Program-made: the position numbers and the translations under genes
Notes under the pieces: model-generated
Databases searched by the model: none
What the model was told of the DNA's origin: nothing
What the model saw: only the letters and a program-made list of their open reading frames with translations
Part shown: positions 6,601-38,482 of the stretch, piece by piece
How positions within the stretch are numbered: the stretch's first letter is position 1
Layout: each line of letters begins with the position of its first letter
Assembly: GCA_030950085.1 (NCBI GenBank)
Contig: JAUZRW010000221.1
Span: 1-45,120, forward strand
Length of the DNA: 45,120 nucleotides
DNA from: Anaerolineae bacterium
Lineage (GTDB): Bacteria > Chloroflexota > Anaerolineae > Aggregatilineales > Phototrophicaceae
Direction: 5' to 3'

Positions 6601-8388
6601 TCATTCATCTAGTTTTAGCACATAAATCGTTCCAAATTGTGCAATCGTATAATCATCAAGGTTAAAACGTGCTAATCCCAACTCATAGACAACAAAATAA
6701 TTGGCTGTTTCAACATAACCAACAGGGTCAGTATTCGTATTTTGCAGACCATGATGATACAGCAGCAGAAAATCAAAATTCATGCCCATGCGATAGGTGG
6801 AGTCGATGCTGTTCCATGCCGCAACCCACCATAAATTACGCATTTCTGGCATGATATCATAACTCACTGTGACTGTATCAGCGCCTTGCCAATCTGCCGC
6901 AATATAATCAACGGTATCCGACACATGGCGATAAATCGACACATTGAAACGGCTATACTGCGCGTCATCATGCTGATTCAGACGTGCCACTCGCTCTGCC
7001 ATACTGACTCCGCCATAGGTCAAGACCAGCACAGCACCAAAAGTCGGCAGCCAACGCGGTAATCTATCATTGCTGAAAATCGCCGCCGCAATCACGATTT
7101 CTAAGCTGGTCAATCCCATAAAATAGGTCGGTTGGTCAATACTGCGTGTGACAATCAAGCCGCTAATGAGGGTCATCACGAACAGCAAAATCAAGATAAT
7201 GCGTCCCTGTGGCGTGTCAATTAAATATTGCGATAATCGCGGATACCATTTTTCGTTGTGAGTATCGGACGGCATAGATGAAGTCCCTACGTTGTCGTGA
7301 TGGTTTGTAGGGACATGATATATCGTGTCCGCTTTACCAGATATCTGCCACACAAATCCCCAAATTGCCCATGCAACACTCATCACAAATAACACAGGCG
7401 GAATATAGAGTGCTAATCGAAAAACAGAGGGCAAGCCGCGCAGAGTTGTATTAAAACCAAGATTGAGTCCCCGTATCGCTTGGGCTGGAATACTAAGAGC
7501 AAAATCAAGCGCCCGTTGCCAACGCGCTTTGATAGTTGGAGCATTGCTAGGTGGTGGTGTATTGCTTGTTGATTGTGATGATGATATCGCTTGGACTGCG
7601 TTGGGCTGTTCGCGTGGCAATAATCCCGATTCAGGCTTGAGATATTGCACTTGTGCCAAAACATCTGCCGAAATACGCGATTCTTGCCGCAGAAAGGCGC
7701 GTATATCCACAAAATCATGTTCTTTTTCATAAATCACATAGGGCGCAAGCATCAGCAAACAAACTGCACCACCCCCTAAGAACCAACGCCATTGCCATTT
7801 TGCACGGCTTATAAGTGCGAAAACAAGCAGAGTCGGGTAGAGCAAAATCGCTGAAAAATGGGTCATAAAGGCGGCAGTCGCTATGATTCCCGATAATGCC
7901 AAATAGATGCCTTTTTCGTGCTTGCGCCATTGCCACAAAAAAAGAAATGTCAGCGCGTAAAAGCCCGGTAAGAGTAATTGCGCCCATGCCGTATATGCAC
8001 TGCTGATACCCACTTCGCTAACCGTGAACATCAAAGCCGCTACTAAGCCGACGCGCGGATTGAACATCGAATCGCCGATGCAAAAGACCGCAATCGTCGT
8101 GATGATGTTGAATGTCAGCATGGTTAGCAAAATAGCACTATACGCATTGTGAGTCATCGTCAATGCCGGCAGGTGTAGCCATGACAACATCGGCATATTA
8201 TAAGCCGCCACACTCGACAACGTGCCGACAGGTGGCACATCATACTCAACCAAGCGCGATAGCACTACAACAATATCAATATCAAAGGGCATATTTTGGG
8301 CAGCCGCCAACTTAATCGGCAGACTCGCCAGCAAAATCAGCAGCAGTAAAACATAGCTTATTCGATAGGAAGATTGTCCATTCGTCAT
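6601..8388 (-). CDS. Polytopic membrane protein, probable GT39-type glycosyltransferase
   Basis: 595 aa. About nine or ten hydrophobic spans in residues 10-455, with a large soluble loop near residues 240-300 and a soluble C-terminal domain of about 130 residues after the last span. The first external loop has the pattern MPFDIDIVVVLSRL, reminiscent of the acidic loop of dolichyl- or undecaprenyl-phosphate-sugar dependent transferases (PMT/ArnT, GT39/GT83), and a PMLSWLHLPAL segment follows as in that group. The assignment rests on topology and these weak motifs, not on an unambiguous catalytic signature. If correct it would transfer a sugar from a lipid carrier outside the membrane. It is convergent with the mocA-like gene and has no obvious operon partner. 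Confidence 0.55.
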   Translation of the reverse strand: MTNGQSSYRISYVLLLLILLASLPIKLAAAQNMPFDIDIVVVLSRLVEYDVPPVGTLSSVAAYNMPMLSWLHLPALTMTHNAYSAILLTMLTFNIITTIAVFCIGDSMFNPRVGLVAALMFTVSEVGISSAYTAWAQLLLPGFYALTFLFLWQWRKHEKGIYLALSGIIATAAFMTHFSAILLYPTLLVFALISRAKWQWRWFLGGGAVCLLMLAPYVIYEKEHDFVDIRAFLRQESRISADVLAQVQYLKPESGLLPREQPNAVQAISSSQSTSNTPPPSNAPTIKARWQRALDFALSIPAQAIRGLNLGFNTTLRGLPSVFRLALYIPPVLFVMSVAWAIWGFVWQISGKADTIYHVPTNHHDNVGTSSMPSDTHNEKWYPRLSQYLIDTPQGRIILILLFVMTLISGLIVTRSIDQPTYFMGLTSLEIVIAAAIFSNDRLPRWLPTFGAVLVLTYGGVSMAERVARLNQHDDAQYSRFNVSIYRHVSDTVDYIAADWQGADTVTVSYDIMPEMRNLWWVAAWNSIDSTYRMGMNFDFLLLYHHGLQNTNTDPVGYVETANYFVVYELGLARFNLDDYTIAQFGTIYVLKLDE

Positions 8389-8586
8389 AACTGTGCATTA
8401 TAGCAGGTACAAACGATATCAGAATAGCATCGTTCTTTCGCCCTGTTTTTGTAATGTTCTGATAAATTCGTACAGGATTCAAACTAATAACGAACAACAC
8501 TGTAATGGAGAAATCCCAACAGAGTCCTTACAATTAGACTATGCAAGTGGGGATGAACAGAGCATGACTGATGGAACAAACTAAGT

Positions 8587-8943
8587 ATGTCAATTGAAAT
8601 TTTGGTAACACTAACTTACAGTGTCGCAGCACTCTTCATGATGTTCATTTTCTGGGGAATCAGTTTAGTGGCGACTCTGCGTCGGGTACGTTTTAATAAC
8701 GTTGAACCGCTTAATTCTTACCAATCAAAACATCCCAATCAAAATTACCGTGTGGTTCATGGTCCCTTAGATGAATGGCATGAGTGGAACAAAAAACGGC
8801 GTGGTAATACCGCTAGACTCGACTCGACTGTCGTGATGCCATTGCGCTATCAGCAACCTCTACTCTTTGGCAACTCCCTATCTGACACCACAAAGCAAAA
8901 TGCCACTATTGATACAATTGATGCAGAAGTAAAAGCCAGTTGA
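8587..8943 (+). CDS. Small single-span membrane protein of unknown function
   Basis: 118 aa. One hydrophobic segment (about residues 5-29) followed by a basic stop-transfer stretch (LRRVRF) and a soluble, largely polar tail rich in Asn, Gln and Thr. I recognise no family. The ribosome site before the ATG is weak. The upstream 200 bp includes a short open frame (8393-8584) that I do not consider a gene. Confidence 0.55.
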   Translation: MSIEILVTLTYSVAALFMMFIFWGISLVATLRRVRFNNVEPLNSYQSKHPNQNYRVVHGPLDEWHEWNKKRRGNTARLDSTVVMPLRYQQPLLFGNSLSDTTKQNATIDTIDAEVKAS

Positions 8944-9058
8944 TTTTTTCTTAAGACAGGGTATGCAAACAGCATATCTGTCGTGGATGTATTTCAATGT
9001 TTTAGCAAAATGCGATTTTGCACTTTCGCGCCTTTGCGTTAGGCATTTCTCACGGATA

Positions 9059-9295
9059 GAAGATTATGCCGAAGCGACTAAATTACCCTCTGATTTTGTC
9101 GCAGAAGAGGCAAAAGAAACCGCACTCGCACAATCAAAATGGGTGCAGGCACGCGCCGAAGAAGATTTTAGCATTTTCCGCGATTCGCTGGCACGCACTA
9201 TCGAACTGACACTCAAAGAGGCAGATTATCTCGCTTATGATGACCATCCTTATGATGCCCTCTTAGGTAAATATAGCGACATTTACGGCTTGTAA
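9059..9295 (+). pseudogene. Fragment of an M32-family carboxypeptidase
   Basis: The frame from about 9059 reads EDYAEATKLPSDFVAEEAK and continues through ALAQSKWVQARAEEDFSIF to YDDHPYDALLGKYSDIYGL. This matches the N-terminal quarter of M32 (Taq-type) metallocarboxypeptidases, which have a LP.ELV..L..A...AQ.AW..AR...DF..F pattern followed by HPYDALLD.YEPG. The full family length is about 500 aa; only some 78 residues remain, and the catalytic HExxH domain is absent. The open frame extends upstream to 8963, but those codons come from intergenic repeat sequence (GCGCCTTTGCGTTAGGCATTTCTCACGGATAG at 9029-9058), which is the truncation boundary. No downstream continuation is seen. Best read as a dead remnant. 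Confidence 0.7.
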
Positions 9296-9318
9296 AAATC
9301 AATAACTGTGAACCACAA

Positions 9319-9348
9319 ATATGGGGACATTTTTGGGTGTCCCCATAT
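9319..9348. other. Long perfect hairpin between convergent genes
   Basis: ATATGGGGACA (9319-9329) pairs perfectly with TGTCCCCATAT (9338-9348) around an 8-nt loop, and CTGTG/CACAG can extend it after an internal bulge. There is no T-run on either side, so it is not a canonical terminator; it lies just after the stop of the multicopper oxidase gene. Confidence 0.6.
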
Positions 9349-9367
9349 CACAGCAGTTCAAACCAAG

Positions 9368-10882
9368 CTATTCGATACGATAATTCCGCATTAATCCCAA
9401 GTCTTCATGTTCCAGATTATGGCAATGATAGAGATATAGCCCCGTATAGTCTGGGAATTTCACCAATACCTTGACTCGTTCGCCGGGCATCAACAAGACA
9501 CTATCTTTCCAACCAGCACCATCTACATAGCCTTCTCGTACTGTGTCCCATATAGAGGCAAAATCAGGGTCAATTTGGCGGTCAATAACTTGAAATTGCA
9601 CGTTATGAATGTGCATCGGATGTGGCATGACCATACCCATTCCCCTGCCCATCCCGCGACCCATTGATGACGGTGGATTGATAAACTCCCATACTTCCAA
9701 ATCGCCCGCTTGAACGATTTCGTTAGCATCCACGTCTGTCATCTCGAAAGATTGTCCATTGATAGTGGCAGCCATCGCCTGCATAGCGACAGTAAATTGG
9801 CGTGGATTAGCAGCGTTGACTGCATTGGGCGCATCATTAAAGTTCGGTGTCGAAAGTTGTGCTGGAAGTGTGGCAGGTGTACTGGTAGCGTCACTATCAA
9901 CATTGACTGTCAGGATAGTAAATTCTGAAGTTCCCATACCGCCCTCTTCTGCACCGGAGAATGTGAGGCTTTTGAGCGATAAACTTGTCCCAACGGGATA
10001 AGTGCTGAAATCTACCCATAAATCAAGGCGCTCACTAGGCGCAAGCATAATATAATCTTTCTCGATTGGGCTTTGTAACAATCCGCCGTCTGTACCGATG
10101 ACTATCAGAGGCGTGCCGTCATCCCATGCCAGCTTGTAAACCCGTGAATTAGACCCATTTAGTAAACGCAGCCGATAAGCACTCTTTTCGACTGAAAGCG
10201 CGTAATCTGCTTGACCATTGACCATCATCCTATCGCCCAAAAATCCGTGCATCCTATCCATCATACCATTGGGAAGATAAACCATTTGGTTGTCCGCATC
10301 AAAAACACGGTCTTGAAGCATAAGTGGTATTTCATAATCGCCCTCTGGTAATCCAAGTGCGTCTTCTTCCTCATCGCTGACGAATAGGAAGCCTGCTAAA
10401 CCAGCATACACTTGTGGTCCCGTGCGCCCGTGTGGGTGTGGATGATACCAATAGGTACCCGCACGATTGATAACCTGAAAATCATAAGTGTAGGTTTCAC
10501 CTGTTTCGATGGCAAAGCGTGGATGCCCATCCGCCGTTTCAGGAACAGTGAGACCATGCCAATGTGTAATCGTTGATTCTGGGAGTTGATTATTCAGATG
10601 AATGCGAACCTGTTGTCCCTTACGGAAACGCAGAATGGGACCAAAATATGAGTTCGGGGTAGATTGAACGCTATTCGGGTCGCCACGAATGACCTCTGCG
10701 ATGTAACGCCAAGTAGAGGTCGTTTGTCCGGGTAAAATCTGTACCTGCTCTGGAATAGCCGTCAGAACAATTTCAACATCTGCTTCGATATCTTGTGCGG
10801 TTGCAGCGATATTTGGGAACTGCGCTAGAACAAGACCTGCAAAGCCCGTTCCAGAGAGGCGTAAAAAATCACGTCGGTTCAT
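9368..10882 (-). CDS. Tat-exported multicopper oxidase
   Basis: 504 aa from the ATG at 10882 (an upstream ATG at 10900 would add six residues). The N-terminus MNRRDFLRLSGTGFAG is a twin-arginine signal, so the enzyme is exported folded. All four copper-ligand motifs are intact: HWHG (107-110), WYHPHPHG (about 145-152), HPMHIH (about 421-426), and HCHNLEHEDLGLM (about 486-498), whose last Met is the axial ligand of a type 1 site. This is the three-cupredoxin architecture of CueO/CotA/bilirubin oxidase enzymes, which couple oxidation of Cu(I), Fe(II), Mn(II) or phenols to reduction of oxygen. A Met/Gly-rich stretch (GRGMGRGMGMVM) sits immediately before the third motif, comparable in kind to CueO's Met-rich segment, and would fit a cuprous oxidase; that is inference. 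Downstream neighbour is a ferritin-like gene in the same direction. Confidence 0.92.
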   Translation of the reverse strand: MNRRDFLRLSGTGFAGLVLAQFPNIAATAQDIEADVEIVLTAIPEQVQILPGQTTSTWRYIAEVIRGDPNSVQSTPNSYFGPILRFRKGQQVRIHLNNQLPESTITHWHGLTVPETADGHPRFAIETGETYTYDFQVINRAGTYWYHPHPHGRTGPQVYAGLAGFLFVSDEEEDALGLPEGDYEIPLMLQDRVFDADNQMVYLPNGMMDRMHGFLGDRMMVNGQADYALSVEKSAYRLRLLNGSNSRVYKLAWDDGTPLIVIGTDGGLLQSPIEKDYIMLAPSERLDLWVDFSTYPVGTSLSLKSLTFSGAEEGGMGTSEFTILTVNVDSDATSTPATLPAQLSTPNFNDAPNAVNAANPRQFTVAMQAMAATINGQSFEMTDVDANEIVQAGDLEVWEFINPPSSMGRGMGRGMGMVMPHPMHIHNVQFQVIDRQIDPDFASIWDTVREGYVDGAGWKDSVLLMPGERVKVLVKFPDYTGLYLYHCHNLEHEDLGLMRNYRIE

Positions 10883-17855: not shown

Positions 17856-19916
17856 TCAAGCAGTCGATAGCTGAGTCCGTTTGAGTAGTTGGGCATTTAT
17901 CGCTACGACAACGGTACTCAGTGACATGAAAGCCGCACCCACCGCCGGCGATAAGATAAAACCAATCGGTGCGAGGACACCTGCTGCAAGCGGTAATGCG
18001 AACAAGTTATAGCCTGTCGCCCAGATGAGATTTTCAATCATCTTGCGATACGTTGCCCGACTCAGTTCAAAGATGTTGACAACATCTAGGGGGTTACTCC
18101 GCACGAGAATGATATCGGCTGCTTCAATGGCAACATCTGTACCACTCCCGATAGCAATACCAATATCAGCGCGAGTGAGTGCTGGGGCATCATTGACACC
18201 ATCGCCAACCATGGCAACCTTTTTACCCTGTTGTTGCAATTCTTGAACCTTGCTATCTTTGTGTTCTGGCAAAACTTCTGCGAAGACGGTATCAATCCCT
18301 AACTGACGGGCGACAGCATCCGCAACTGCTTGGCTATCGCCGGTAAGCATTGCTACTTCGACACCTAGTTGATGCAGTTTATCAACCGCCTGTTTGCTCT
18401 CTTCGCGGACAACATCTGCCAGTGCGAAGCCTGCCGCAATCTCGCCATCAACGACCAAATAGATAATGGTTTGGGCGTTATCATTAGCTTGGTTGGCGAA
18501 TTGTTCAATGTCACCCGTTAGCGTCAAGTTGAGCAATTCCAGCAAACGGGGTCCACCGACATGGACAGTTTTTCCATCCCATTGTGCTTTGATACCGCGT
18601 CCCTTAATGGCTTCAAAATTGCTGATAACTGTCGCTGCGATACCGTCATCTTCTGCCTTTTGGCGGATACCGCGTGCAATCGGATGTTCGGAGTCGCCTT
18701 CAACACCGGCTATCAATGCAAGGGTTTGTTGGCTATCCCAATTCGCTGTTGATAGCATATCCACCACACCGAAACGTCCCTCTGTCAGTGTGCCTGTTTT
18801 ATCGAAGATAATCGTATCAATATTGCGTGCTGCTTCTAGTGCCAAGCGATTACGAACGAGAATGCCGTTTTTCGCGCCCATGGAGGTACTAATAGCGACA
18901 ACCAGTGGAATAGCTAAACCGAGTGCATGAGGGCAAGCAATCACTAGAACAGTGACAACTCGTGCCAGCACATTAAGATTGTAGCCATCGGCAATAATCC
19001 AGCCAACAGTCGTCAGTCCAGCAACAACAATAGCGAGATAAAATAACCATCCGGCGGCTTTATCGGCTAAAATTTGGGTTGCCGATTTGCTCTTCTGTGC
19101 CTCTTCGACTAAACGCATAATCCCTGCGAGGGCGGTTTCATCTCCTGTGGCTGTGACTTTGAGACGCAGACTGCCATCGCCATTAATCGTACCTGCGATA
19201 ACTTTATCGCCTGTACTTTTTTTCACAGGCAGACTTTCACCTGTAATCATCGCTTCGTTAATGTCTGATTGACCATCTACAATTTCACCATCAGCAGCAA
19301 TACTCGCACCAGGGCGCACGAGAACAAGGTCGCCGCTTTGTAAGGCACTCACGGATACTTCTTCCGTACTGCCATCGGCTTTAATACGCTCGGCTATATC
19401 TGGCAACAGTTTCGCTAATTCGTTCAATGCGCCTGATGCTTGTCGGATACTCCGCATTTCTATCCAGTGACCGAGTAACATCACATCAATCAATGTGACT
19501 AATTCCCAGAAGAAGTCTTCTCCTACCCCCGTGAAAAGGGCAAAGAGGCTGTAGGCGAATGCCACACTAATCGCCAGCGAGATAAGGGTCATCATACCCG
19601 GCAGACGGTTGCGAATTTCCGGCACAGCCATCTCAAGGAAGGGGATACCCCCATAGATGAATACGATGACACTGAAAAAGGGTCCGATGAATTGACTGCC
19701 TGTGAATTCTGGCATTGAGAAGCCCAACCACCTTTGAACAGCCGCGCTGAATAACAAAACTGGAATACTCAAAATCAGATTGACCCAAAAGCGATTACGG
19801 AACATCATCTCGTGTCCACTATGGTCAGTACCATGTCCGCTATGGTCATCATGCTCCTGAGGGGCTTCATGCTCATGCTGACTATGTTCATGTTGTGAGT
19901 GTGCGTGAGAACTCAT
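17856..19916 (-). CDS. CopB-type heavy-metal P1B ATPase
   Basis: 686 aa. N-terminal His-rich region (residues 4-36, many HxH and HxxH) instead of an HMA domain, then eight predicted spans. Diagnostic P-type motifs: TGES (225-228), CPH (328-330) in the sixth span, DKTGTLT (372-378, phosphorylated Asp), SEHP (409-412), and GDGVNDAP (571-578). CPH together with a His-rich N-terminus marks subgroup P1B-3 (CopB), which exports Cu(II)/Cu(I) or Ag(I) at the cost of ATP. The membrane metal site is completed by motifs in the last spans ([10 protein letters not shown] and [16 protein letters not shown]). Two CsoR-type operators lie 30 and 64 bp upstream. No CsoR gene, copper chaperone or other copper gene is adjacent; the multicopper oxidase at 9368 could be a partner. 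GAAGG lies five nt before the ATG. Confidence 0.93.
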
Positions 19917-34852: not shown

Positions 34853-34886
34853 CAAGCAACCGTTTTCTTGGCGAAACGGTTGCTTG
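34853..34886. terminator. Strong 13-bp hairpin between convergent transcripts
   Basis: CAAGCAACCGTTT (34853-34865) pairs perfectly with AAACGGTTGCTTG (34874-34886) around an 8-nt loop, followed on the plus strand by CATTTTAATG. It separates the plus-strand TPR gene from the minus-strand metal operon. Confidence 0.65.
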
Positions 34887-34940: not shown

Positions 34941-35537
34941 TCATCGTTGACCTTCGGACCAGACGAGAATGGGCATGTTAATCACTACGCCGGGTTGTTC
35001 AATGATAAGTTCTTCTGCTTCATGAGCAGCATCTATCTCAGCAAGGTTATTGAGCAGACGGGGTGTGCTGCCTTCTTGCCAAGTGACGAGGTTCAGTGTT
35101 CGTAGTGGGCTATATTCTGGCGAATCAGGGACATTATCAAAAATGTCAGGCTGGAAACCCAAGGGACCAGCGCCAGAAATACCATTGGTAAACACATAGA
35201 CATTAGCCAAAAGTTCTTCTGGTATATCAGCTAACATCGGAACAGTAACGAGCACTGGACCCATCATGTCCGTTAAAATAGTCGATATCGCTTCATCTGA
35301 CGTTTCAGTGTGAATGAAAAATACATCCTCACCGTTAAAAATACCACGTACTAACGGGACGAGTTCATCACTGGAAAAGTCGGTATCCATACTGCCCATG
35401 CCATCACCCATACCAGACATTGCTTGGGTTGGTTCGGGCGTTGCTGTGCCGTCTTGTTGTGCTAGTGGTGTCAGGGAAAAAAGGCTGATGACGATGAGAG
35501 CCAATAAGAGACCCATTAATCCTATTTTACTTCGCAT
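34941..35537 (-). CDS. Secreted protein, DUF7482-like
   Basis: 198 aa. Signal peptide (about 25 residues, ending TPLAQ), then a Met/Gly-rich, acidic linker (MSGMGDGMGSMDTD, about 40-53) that could bind soft metals, and a compact C-terminal domain with FIHTETSDE, VYVFTNGISGAGPLGFQ, FDNVPDSPEYSPLR and PGVVINMPILVW. The Y-V-F-TNGI-G-GPLGFQ pattern is what I associate with DUF7482, a secreted domain of unknown function. Last gene of an operon with a MerR regulator, an HMA chaperone and a CcdA-like protein; 25 bp after the CcdA stop. A role in metal handling is inferred from position and the Met-rich segment. Confidence 0.6.
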   Translation of the reverse strand: MRSKIGLMGLLLALIVISLFSLTPLAQQDGTATPEPTQAMSGMGDGMGSMDTDFSSDELVPLVRGIFNGEDVFFIHTETSDEAISTILTDMMGPVLVTVPMLADIPEELLANVYVFTNGISGAGPLGFQPDIFDNVPDSPEYSPLRTLNLVTWQEGSTPRLLNNLAEIDAAHEAEELIIEQPGVVINMPILVWSEGQR

Positions 35538-35562
35538 GATGCTTATCCTTTTTGACTATGAA

Positions 35563-36459
35563 TTAGGGGAATAGAACTTGTACAAAGGCTGTGACATTAA
35601 TTGATGTCACGATGTTAAATACTCCCACAGCGACCAGTAGCACGCTTGAGACTGTTTTGATGCGTGGCGTGGCGTTTTTTAAGCGATGAATCATTGTTTT
35701 TTGTGATGTGGCAACCAGCAAGGACAGCAAAAGCATCAATGTAGCCATTGTGATGGAAAAAACAAAAAAAGCGGGGAATGCTGAAACCCAACCACCACTG
35801 CTGAGGGCAAAGACCACTAATCCAACAAGGATGGGTCCCGTACAGCCCATACCCGCCGCATTGTATCCAAATCCATATAGGTAGAGGCTACGAGCAGGGT
35901 ATTGTTTAGCATCGGAGCGTGGGCGAGTGCGCCAAGCCAAAGCATCGGCAATGATAGGCTTGAGATTGACTTCGCACAGTTGGGCAATTCCCAATATCAA
36001 GAGAACAACCCCGACTCCACCGCGAAAAAAGCGGATAAACGTTGCATTTTCCCCTGTGATTGATAGACCCTGTGCGACACCAGCTCCCAAAATCCCAATA
36101 ATAGCGCCCAAAATGAGGTTAAAGCTAACGACACCAGCCGCTGCCGCAAGACCGAGTTTGAGAGTCGAAGGTTTACTGCTTAGGGTTTGCTTATTTTGCT
36201 GAACGCCGGAATAGTAGAGCGAAAAATATCCGGGTAATAGCGGAAAGGCACACGGCGAAAAGAAACTGGCAACCCCAGCAATAATAGAAAGTGCCAAGAG
36301 ATTATAGGCAGTCAAATCTGGCATCACACGGGTAGCAAAGAACCGAAAAATGACATAGCCGCCGACAATGATAGCGACAAGTAGTATCAGCACCCCTGCA
36401 TAAAGCAGCCAGTTTTGCGCTTGATTGTTTGTCGATGCGCTTGTCTCAGTCATCTTCAA
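35563..36459 (-). CDS. CcdA/DsbD-type membrane thiol reductant carrier
   Basis: 298 aa. Six to seven spans. FFSPCAFPLLPGYFSLYYSG (about 67-86, Cys70) and GCTGPILVGLVVF (Cys206) are the conserved Cys pair of the CcdA/DsbD-beta family, which moves thiol reducing equivalents across the membrane. A TM leader and tail are extra. In Chloroflexota and Deinococcus this family is often paired with an HMA protein under a MerR regulator, as here; transport of a metal cation rather than thiols is possible. The ATG lies 14 nt inside the HMA gene, so they are translationally coupled. Confidence 0.85.
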   Translation of the reverse strand: MKMTETSASTNNQAQNWLLYAGVLILLVAIIVGGYVIFRFFATRVMPDLTAYNLLALSIIAGVASFFSPCAFPLLPGYFSLYYSGVQQNKQTLSSKPSTLKLGLAAAAGVVSFNLILGAIIGILGAGVAQGLSITGENATFIRFFRGGVGVVLLILGIAQLCEVNLKPIIADALAWRTRPRSDAKQYPARSLYLYGFGYNAAGMGCTGPILVGLVVFALSSGGWVSAFPAFFVFSITMATLMLLLSLLVATSQKTMIHRLKNATPRIKTVSSVLLVAVGVFNIVTSINVTAFVQVLFP

Positions 36460-36676
36460 CTCTCCGCACCTGATATCCTAAGTGTTTGAGTTCAGTGACG
36501 ATTTGCTCGTGAGTGTCGCTAGCGCTGACTTCGACCTCAATTTCTTGCGTGTGATAATCTGCATCAACCTGCTTGACCCCATCAATCTGAGAAAGTGAAA
36601 ATTTGACCGTTTGGACACATCCCGCACAGTGCATTGTGTTTTCACCCTCAATAATCCAAGTTTGTTTGGTAGTCAT
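36446..36676 (-). CDS. HMA-domain metallochaperone (CopZ/MerP-like)
   Basis: 76 aa, a single heavy-metal-associated domain with the MHCAGC motif (residues 15-20; Cys17 and Cys20) and the typical babbab pattern (VKFSLSQIDGVKQVDADY and EIEVEVSASDTHEQIVTEL). No signal peptide, so cytoplasmic (CopZ-like) rather than periplasmic MerP. Metal probably Cu(I), Hg(II) or Zn-group, not distinguishable here. It sits between the MerR gene (18 bp gap) and the CcdA-like gene (overlap), so it likely delivers metal to or from the CcdA-like membrane protein. Confidence 0.9.
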   Translation of the reverse strand: MTTKQTWIIEGENTMHCAGCVQTVKFSLSQIDGVKQVDADYHTQEIEVEVSASDTHEQIVTELKHLGYQVRRVEDD

Positions 36677-36694
36677 GAAGATAACCTCTCTATG

Positions 36695-37102
36695 CTAATT
36701 GTCTTTATCAGTTTCGATGATTTGGCAGATACAGTCCGTAGTCTCGTTGATTTGTAGTTCTTGAGGCAGCTTATTGAGTTCAAGCAGTTCGGAACGCAAC
36801 ATTTCTAGTTCTTGGATGCGTGTCTCTACTTCGGAGATTTTGCTTGTGATGAGTTCTTGAACATACGCGCAGGGTAGCGTACCATCTTCACGGAAAGCCA
36901 GTATCTCCGCGATATTATCAAGCGTAAAATGGAGTTGTCGGGCGCGGTTGATAAAACGAAGTTGCTCAATATCTGATTCGCTATAGATACGGTATCCATT
37001 TTCAGCACGAACGGCTTGCGGCAAGATGCCTATTCGTTCATAGTGACGAATCGTTTCTGGTGAAACGCCGATTTTTTTAGCAAATTCTTGAATGTGCATC
37101 AT
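36695..37102 (-). CDS. MerR-family metal-responsive regulator
   Basis: About 135 aa; ATG at 37102 with GAGGAA four nt upstream (a TTG one codon earlier opens the frame). The N-terminal winged HTH (IQEFAKKIGVSPETIRHYERIGIL, about 3-26) is standard MerR, then a dimerisation helix with Cys at about 78 (GTLPCAYV) and a C-terminal pair CIC at about 124-126. A Cys at this position near the helix start is the mark of divalent-metal sensors (MerR, ZntR, PbrR), while CueR-type Cu(I) sensors have Ser there. The usual third Cys around residue 112-114 is missing. So Hg/Zn/Cd/Pb sensing is more likely than copper; this is inference. Autoregulation through a dyad in its own promoter is likely. Confidence 0.88.
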   Translation of the reverse strand: MMHIQEFAKKIGVSPETIRHYERIGILPQAVRAENGYRIYSESDIEQLRFINRARQLHFTLDNIAEILAFREDGTLPCAYVQELITSKISEVETRIQELEMLRSELLELNKLPQELQINETTDCICQIIETDKDN

Positions 37103-37138
37103 CAAGTTCCTCTACGACTCATTCTGCCTTATATTAGC

Positions 37139-37169
37139 AGTCTAAACCTTGTAATGGTTGTAAGGTCAA
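37139..37169 (-). promoter_or_regulatory. MerR-type promoter with 19-bp spacer and 21-bp dyad
   Basis: Reading the minus strand, TTGACC (-35, 37164-37169) and TAGACT (-10, 37139-37144) are separated by 19 bp. Inside is ACCTTACAACCATTACAAGGT (37146-37166), a 21-bp imperfect dyad with ACCTT/AAGGT ends, the same size and end sequence as the CueR/ZntR type. An overlong spacer that the regulator twists is the hallmark of MerR promoters. It drives the MerR-HMA-CcdA-DUF7482 operon. Confidence 0.75.
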
Positions 37170-37333: not shown

Positions 37334-38482
37334 TTACTCTTTTTGCAGGAAGTCTTTTAAGGCGCTAATCGTATCATCAATGCGGTCATGATTGAGCGAA
37401 TAGCACTTAGCAACATCGCGCCGCCGTTCCGATACAAAGCCCGAAGCGGTCAATTGGCGCAGATGGCGACTCGCACTCGATTGGCTTAAGTCTAATTCGG
37501 TGATGAAGTCTTGAGCGCACAACTCGTCATGTTGTGTCAGGAGTTCCAGTATTTTGAGGCGTGTTTCATCGGCTAAGGCATTTAAGCGCACGAGCAGTTC
37601 GCTACGACCTAAAGCTGTCGATTTCATCAAAGCATTTTTGGGTGAACGTGCGCCAAAGAGAAAGACGATATGACGAGGCCAATCTTCTGAAGGCCCCCAA
37701 CCAATATAGGGTCCAAGATGCGCGGATGGCACGAAGGTCAGGATTTCGGCTTGGCGGATATGGGTTTCAAAATCATCTTTGCCACGCATATTGCGTCCCA
37801 TAACGGTTTCAATGGCTTCAAAAGCAGTCATATCACTAAAATCGACTTGCGAAAAAGCATCTACCGCTTCTTGCAAGGTCGGTTTGATACGCTTCCATTC
37901 GGCTTTGAGGTACTTATCCCACATATGGCGCAGGTGTTCGATTGAATCATCTTTTAATTGCTGTGGATTCATAATGTAATCATAGCGCATATCCCATGCC
38001 CCATCATCAAAGTCATGACCTTTTTTCGCGTATTTTTCAGCTAACAAGTCGTGAATGTATTTTATGTAAGATTCACGACTCGCCAGAAGAGCATCGTCGC
38101 CGGGATAGTCTTCGCGTTTTTCACGAATCCCAACTAACATGCCCTCACGAAAATCATTCACAGGAGTTTGTTCGACATCTTTAATCAGTTCCAGAAATGA
38201 CATGCTATCTCTAGCCGCACTTGAATTCATGACATGCGCTACATGGTCAACCACATCTGCCACAATTTGATTCCGCATTTTACGGTCATCATCCATGTCA
38301 TTCGCGGTGGTATATAACCACTCCGCCAAACCAGAATGAATATCAGCCACATTCAGCAAACGCAAAGTATTCATGAGGCTATTTGCTTCGTGCAAAATAA
38401 CGCGCACTTGCACTGTTGCTGGTGCTAAAATGACATCCCAATCTGCCACGACGCGAACTCCTAATTCTAATTTAGCCGGCAT
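37334..38482 (-). CDS. ArsR-type winged-helix regulator with large N-terminal domain
   Basis: 382 aa. The last 90 residues are an ArsR/SmtB winged helix: RLNALADETRLKILELLTQH (about 297-316), LCAQDFITELDLSQSSASRHLRQL (about 320-343, recognition helix) and SGFVSERRRDVAKCYSL. Residues 1-290 form a large helical domain of the DUF5937-like type often fused ahead of ArsR HTH, where the domain may sense a ligand. The Cys pair that binds metal in ArsR or CadC is not evident. Self-repression is typical. It has its own terminator and is not cotranscribed with the MerR operon downstream. Confidence 0.78.
   Translation of the reverse strand: MPAKLELGVRVVADWDVILAPATVQVRVILHEANSLMNTLRLLNVADIHSGLAEWLYTTANDMDDDRKMRNQIVADVVDHVAHVMNSSAARDSMSFLELIKDVEQTPVNDFREGMLVGIREKREDYPGDDALLASRESYIKYIHDLLAEKYAKKGHDFDDGAWDMRYDYIMNPQQLKDDSIEHLRHMWDKYLKAEWKRIKPTLQEAVDAFSQVDFSDMTAFEAIETVMGRNMRGKDDFETHIRQAEILTFVPSAHLGPYIGWGPSEDWPRHIVFLFGARSPKNALMKSTALGRSELLVRLNALADETRLKILELLTQHDELCAQDFITELDLSQSSASRHLRQLTASGFVSERRRDVAKCYSLNHDRIDDTISALKDFLQKE

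Follow-up and report, generated by a model that had tools for sequence, protein, structure and literature searches.

Organization of the operon

Within the window (the whole analysed stretch, 45,120 nt, zero N), a tight operon was located on the minus strand at 34941–37169: a promoter is followed by merR and then by genes for an HMA protein, a CcdA-type membrane protein (P0003) and a secreted DUF7482 protein (Table 1). The initial annotation had described exactly this order behind a promoter with a 19-bp spacer, and all four minus-strand open reading frames and the promoter were found. The gaps are 18 nt (merR–HMA) and 25 nt (CcdA–DUF7482); the CcdA-type gene likely starts at ATG 36453 rather than at 36459, and in that case it shares an 8-nt overlap, ATGACTGA, with the HMA gene and its stop codon. 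A hairpin beyond the last gene may serve to terminate the convergent plus-strand gene or both transcription units.

Promoter elements: −35 TTGACC (37169–37164); spacer 19 bp; −10 TAGACT (37144–37139); spacer dyad ACCTT (37166–37162)/AAGGT (37150–37146). The promoter was not listed by a standard sigma-70 scan with spacers of 16–18 nt, as expected for a MerR-type promoter with a 19-bp spacer. The same layout precedes merR orthologues in L087 (TTGACATTGTAACTGTTACAGGGTTTAGACT), L088 (TTGACCTTCCAGTAGCTGGAAGGTATATCAT) and L089, and a chance match is therefore discounted.

Two other genes of the window were recorded. Just upstream of the operon (37334–38482, minus strand) lies a gene whose 382-aa product ends in an ArsR/SmtB metalloregulator domain (NF033788, 70.4 vs 55 bits); the roughly 290 residues before it match no family. 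At 17856–19916 (minus strand) a P1B-type ATPase with DKTGT is encoded, which shares 35% identity with the GYPC-type ATPase of L068.

Table 1. Coordinates of the operon features in the window and of likely CcdA-type selenocysteine loci in other contigs.
Feature	Position	Strand	Remarks
MerR-type promoter	37139–37169	−	sequence; layout repeated upstream of merR in L087, L088, L089
merR	36695–37105	−	start TTG (ATG at 37102 or 37099); predicted divalent-type metal sensor, C79 and C-terminal CxC
HMA metal carrier (predicted)	36446–36676	−	MHCAGC; no signal peptide seen
CcdA/DsbD_TM-type membrane protein	35563–36459	−	TM0 and six helices; invariant C70, C206
Secreted short-form DUF7482 protein	34941–35537	−	Cys-free; conserved H76, M91, M188
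Hairpin, 14-bp stem, downstream of operon	34853–34886		scan: terminator-like on + strand
CcdA-type Sec loci	L035 (-2047), L036 (1060), L037 (-2026), L038 (878), L097 (1019), L099 (10613)		
Further CcdA-type Sec loci	L102 (10529), L103 (10616), L104 (7362), L105 (5427), L125 (-2068)		

Proteins of the operon

MerR: Pfam MerR_1, 2.7e-19; three Cys in total (C79, C125 and C127, numbered from TTG). The best solved match was 4ua1 (80.8 bits), which we take to be a Bacillus-type MerR, followed by two MerR-family or CadR entries (75 and 72 bits) and CueR (66 bits). In the alignment with 4ua1, C79 matches its N-terminal sensor Cys, so that the sensor Cys assigned by the initial annotation was right, and by this residue the protein is predicted to be a divalent-type metal sensor. 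The accompanying statement that the usual third Cys is lacking holds for the equivalent of Bacillus MerR C114 and fails for the count, the protein having a C-terminal CxC (C125, C127) instead; nine relatives all retain C79 and C127. The operon MerR fell below the NCBIfam equivalog cut-offs for MerR (TIGR02051, 100.8 vs 150.85 bits), ZntR, CueR and CadR, and the model scores were nearly equal (ZntR 105, MerR 101, CueR 98, CadR-PbrR 98); the metal is therefore not readable from the family name.

HMA protein: Pfam HMA, 1.9e-13; the MHCAGC motif noted earlier is present; the protein is below the cut-offs of NF045683 and NF041115 and is presumed to be cytosolic, as no signal peptide was seen.

CcdA-type protein: DsbD_TM, 5.1e-07, 29.6 bits (cut-off 27.1). 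Two intramembrane Cys had been noted, and C70 and C206 are indeed invariant in the family, to which a third, variable Cys (C162) has to be added. The structure model (pLDDT 66, 11 sequences) contains TM0 and six helices, broken where the two Cys motifs lie, and its top PDB match was CcdA 5vkv (prob 1.00, E 0.013). Counts of Lys and Arg favour an orientation with the N-terminus in the cytosol. A fusion with HMA at the N-terminus of CcdA is encoded in L067, and with the N-in orientation the HMA of this fusion would therefore be cytosolic.

DUF7482 protein: PF24298, 4.8e-25, 89.2 bits (gathering score 27.5), covering only positions 155–256 of the 257 of the profile. The product, described at first as a secreted Met/Gly-rich protein, is secreted and has 8 Met in the mature form; the description is to be corrected in that it has zero Cys. 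In short forms H76 and M91 are conserved, M188 is found in 9/10, and Cys is confined to the lipobox and an upstream extension in some relatives. A fold search of the model gave no match at E ≤ 0.001 or Z ≥ 2; the model was built from a 10-row alignment and the five models varied (pLDDT 45–74), so that a fold could have been missed. No dedicated study was found in a literature search on DUF7482.

Elsewhere the short form follows P1B-ATPases, either of an unusual GYPC type (L018, L021, L022, L062) or of the CPC copper type (L020, L023, L024, in some cases together with CsoR or DsbD_2-cupredoxin). In L021 the short form and the P1B-ATPase share one reading frame through a TM-like linker without Ns, a frameshift of the MAG being possible, and in L019 the short form immediately precedes MerR. 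These contexts suggest an extracytoplasmic metal-binding accessory and support a metal role in general, not one metal. An apparent DUF7482–DsbD_2-cupredoxin fusion (L025:1232–2557, minus strand) was rejected as an artefact, since two genes are bridged there by the Ns of a scaffold gap. A full-length paralogue (269.7 bits, nearly the whole profile) lies in the same genome away from the operon (L027:7932–9062; G000:C204). P1B-ATPases with GYPC for the usual CPC transport motif occur beside MerR, MerA or DUF7482 genes in L018, L021, L022, L062 and L068.

Gene order and mercuric reductase

Conservation of the gene order, named beforehand as the check on which the proposal could fall, was borne out: a second Chloroflexi genome (MAG PMV_1.47; L087) has the same four genes, order and 19-bp promoter, with about 62–66% identity for MerR, CcdA and DUF7482; a frame scan and tblastn revealed its HMA gene. 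An Ardenticatenia genome (L088) has MerR (7408–7833), MerA (7885–9738; N-terminal GMTCDSC, C-terminal SCCAG), HMA and CcdA in this order, so that HMA and CcdA occupy the place of MerP and MerT in classical mer operons. In L089, L062, L063, L093 and L095, too, HMA immediately precedes CcdA; an HMA–CcdA pair lies near MerA in L063 and L068; in L075 (G595) the C-terminus of CcdA is followed on one strand by MerR and MerA; and in an archaeal contig (L098) a more distant CcdA is followed by NifS and MerA (561.7 bits).

Searches of genome contigs gave no match with a single-protein query and gave matches with an alignment query; viral contigs and plasmids contained no relatives. At E < 1e-80 P0003 was matched in 2 genomes besides this one (G517, G595) among 396 of the class, with a close but truncated match in G566 (55% identity), and the module is therefore regarded as a rare accessory one.

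MerA (TIGR02053, above the NCBI cut-off) was present in 7 of the 11 genomes with a close CcdA homologue (G659, G660, G661, G595, G566, G745, G747) vs 37 of 298 in the class (Fisher, one-sided, p = 1.6e-4; 6.7e-5 without the archaeal genome; kinship ignored, some genomes incomplete). In G659, the genome of L087, MerA belongs to a separate merR–merA unit. By TIGR02053 no MerA above the cut-off was found in G000 (this genome), G517, G744 and G746. This genome is 97% complete; its best MerA-like protein scored 335.8 bits (cut-off 454.45), none of its four MerA-like candidates has a vicinal C-terminal CC, and the operon contains no MerA gene; imported Hg would therefore find no known reductase here. 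MerT/MerP in cells that lack MerA is known to cause hypersensitivity to Hg. Several MerA-like C-terminal CC pattern matches were chance reading frames, and matches were counted only where the open reading frame was confirmed.

MerA-like genes with an in-frame TGA were also seen: a flavoprotein gene at L062:1231–2604 (plus strand), directly before MerR, has TGA at 1351 in the active-site motif (GGTUVNEGC), and G566, G661 and G447 contain further MerA-like matches, each interrupted by a single TGA.

Probable selenocysteine forms of the CcdA-type protein

In relatives from Chloroflexota, Thermomicrobiota, Actinomycetota and Armatimonadota an in-frame TGA stands at the position of C206, in the otherwise conserved motif AGFG[U]xGPI. 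A GGTCT apical loop on a stem with 5 or more pairs, 21 nt after the TGA start, was found in 9/11 Sec genes and 0/11 Cys genes; the loop sequence of the E. coli fdhF SECIS is identical to GGTCT. SelB was above the cut-off in the Chloroflexota genomes tested, save G584. The Sec form is a single clade (support 100/100), members of which adjoin MerR in L103, L127 and L128, and the CcdA-type proteins with TGA and SECIS-like hairpin are likely a selenoprotein family. One Sec-form CcdA matched no NCBIfam model at 1e-6. A keyword search of two selenoproteome reviews (PMC13188914, PMC9312934) gave MerT-type selenoproteins and no CcdA-type ones, and the Sec-containing sister clade appears to be undescribed. 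On the Armatimonadota contig L103 (8645–9472, minus strand) a gene between MerR and other metal genes encodes a protein whose matches to a DF-family (seleno)protein domain and to a MerC-like domain both fall short of the cut-off.

Comparison with known systems

With the classical mer operon (merR–merT–merP–merA) the operon shares a MerR with an N-terminal sensor Cys, the 19-bp-spacer promoter, an HMA-type carrier and a membrane protein with a Cys pair, and MerA occurs in its relatives. It differs in that no MerT/MerC/MerF-type protein was seen in it, a DsbD_TM-type protein being the sole membrane carrier, in the lack of MerA in the operon or above the cut-off in the genome, in the HMA protein without signal peptide and in the additional DUF7482 gene. 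It is thus not a mer operon in the strict sense, since the genome has no MerA above the cut-off and the operon no MerT, and working like one is the best reading that the sequences offer.

The protein resembles CcdA (5vkv), a membrane electron transporter, in the DsbD_TM domain and the six-helix core with two helices broken at Cys motifs, but has an extra N-terminal helix, carries its second Cys in a C[TA]GPI motif and is partnered by an HMA protein, not by a thioredoxin-like protein. The MerT/CopZ fusion-like selenoprotein (NF045683) and the UxxU metal-binding (seleno)protein (NF041115) likewise combine a metal carrier with HMA and exchange Cys and Sec, but the membrane part here is CcdA-type and the HMA misses both models. 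CcdA-domain membrane proteins of actinomycetes carry the annotation 'mercury transporter' (PMC12195606, Table 4); the idea of a CcdA for mercury is for this reason not wholly new. No dedicated study was found in a literature search on CcdA and mercury.

Proposed function and alternatives

The operon is read as a MerR-regulated mer-type module for a soft divalent metal, responsive to Hg(II), with an inward relay from C70/C206 to HMA and with DUF7482 as an accessory outside; we put the probability of this reading at roughly 0.45. On binding Hg(II), MerR would distort the 19-bp-spacer promoter and switch on its own operon; Hg(II) would be moved inward by thiol exchange at the intramembrane pair C70/C206 of the CcdA-type protein; the cytosolic HMA protein would accept it by MHCAGC at the inner face, the two together doing the work of MerT and MerP; and DUF7482 would be a His/Met metal-binding accessory on the outer, extracytoplasmic side. 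The mercury-type route with a CcdA-type carrier in place of MerT, put forward in the initial annotation, is well supported by the order MerR–MerA–HMA–CcdA in L088, the enrichment of MerA and the conserved gene order and promoter. Against a mercury module speak the lack of a MerA above the cut-off in this genome, the MerR, which passes no metal-specific NCBIfam cut-off, and the occurrence of DUF7482 in copper-type clusters.

Transport in the opposite direction is unlikely: a soft metal would be picked up in the cytosol by HMA, exported by the CcdA-type protein and held outside by DUF7482, no reductase being needed. Such a route would suit a genome without MerA above the cut-off and the position of DUF7482 after P1B exporter ATPases, once in frame with one (L021); it leaves export by a CcdA-type protein without an evident energy source and is at odds with HMA–CcdA of L088, which sits with MerA, an enzyme that needs inward transport.

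It is equally improbable that the same architecture serves another metal; the divalent-type MerR would point to Zn, Cd or Pb, the secreted, Met-rich protein to Cu/Ag. The almost equal scores of the ZntR, MerR, CueR and CadR-PbrR models and the short DUF7482 after CopA-type ATPases with CsoR in L020 would fit such a reading, but C79 speaks against a monovalent (Cu/Ag) sensor and the MerA link is specific to Hg; for these two reasons a plain copper reading, drawn from the clusters of DUF7482 with copper ATPases, is ranked below Hg.

Outward transfer of cytosolic electrons by the CcdA-type protein, as by CcdA and DsbD, for repair of metal-oxidised thiols is very unlikely: the CcdA fold with both intramembrane Cys would allow it and Sec at the second Cys of the sister clade fits redox as well as metal binding, but the operon has no thioredoxin-like partner, its secreted, extracytoplasmic protein carries zero Cys and the CcdA-type protein is conserved together with an HMA metal carrier.

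With mercury import preferred for the operon, a wider proposal is made somewhat more tentatively: HMA and CcdA may be a distinct type of Hg(II) transporter that replaces MerP/MerT in mer systems of Chloroflexota, with a Sec sister clade (Chloroflexota, Actinomycetota, Armatimonadota, Thermomicrobiota) and short DUF7482 acting outside the cytoplasm as a metal partner. If this is true, mercury systems of little-studied phyla would have adapted the electron-moving CcdA/DsbD membrane fold to carry metal, a selenoprotein membrane carrier would exist with Sec in place of one transport Cys, and DUF7482, a domain of unknown function, would gain a testable context.
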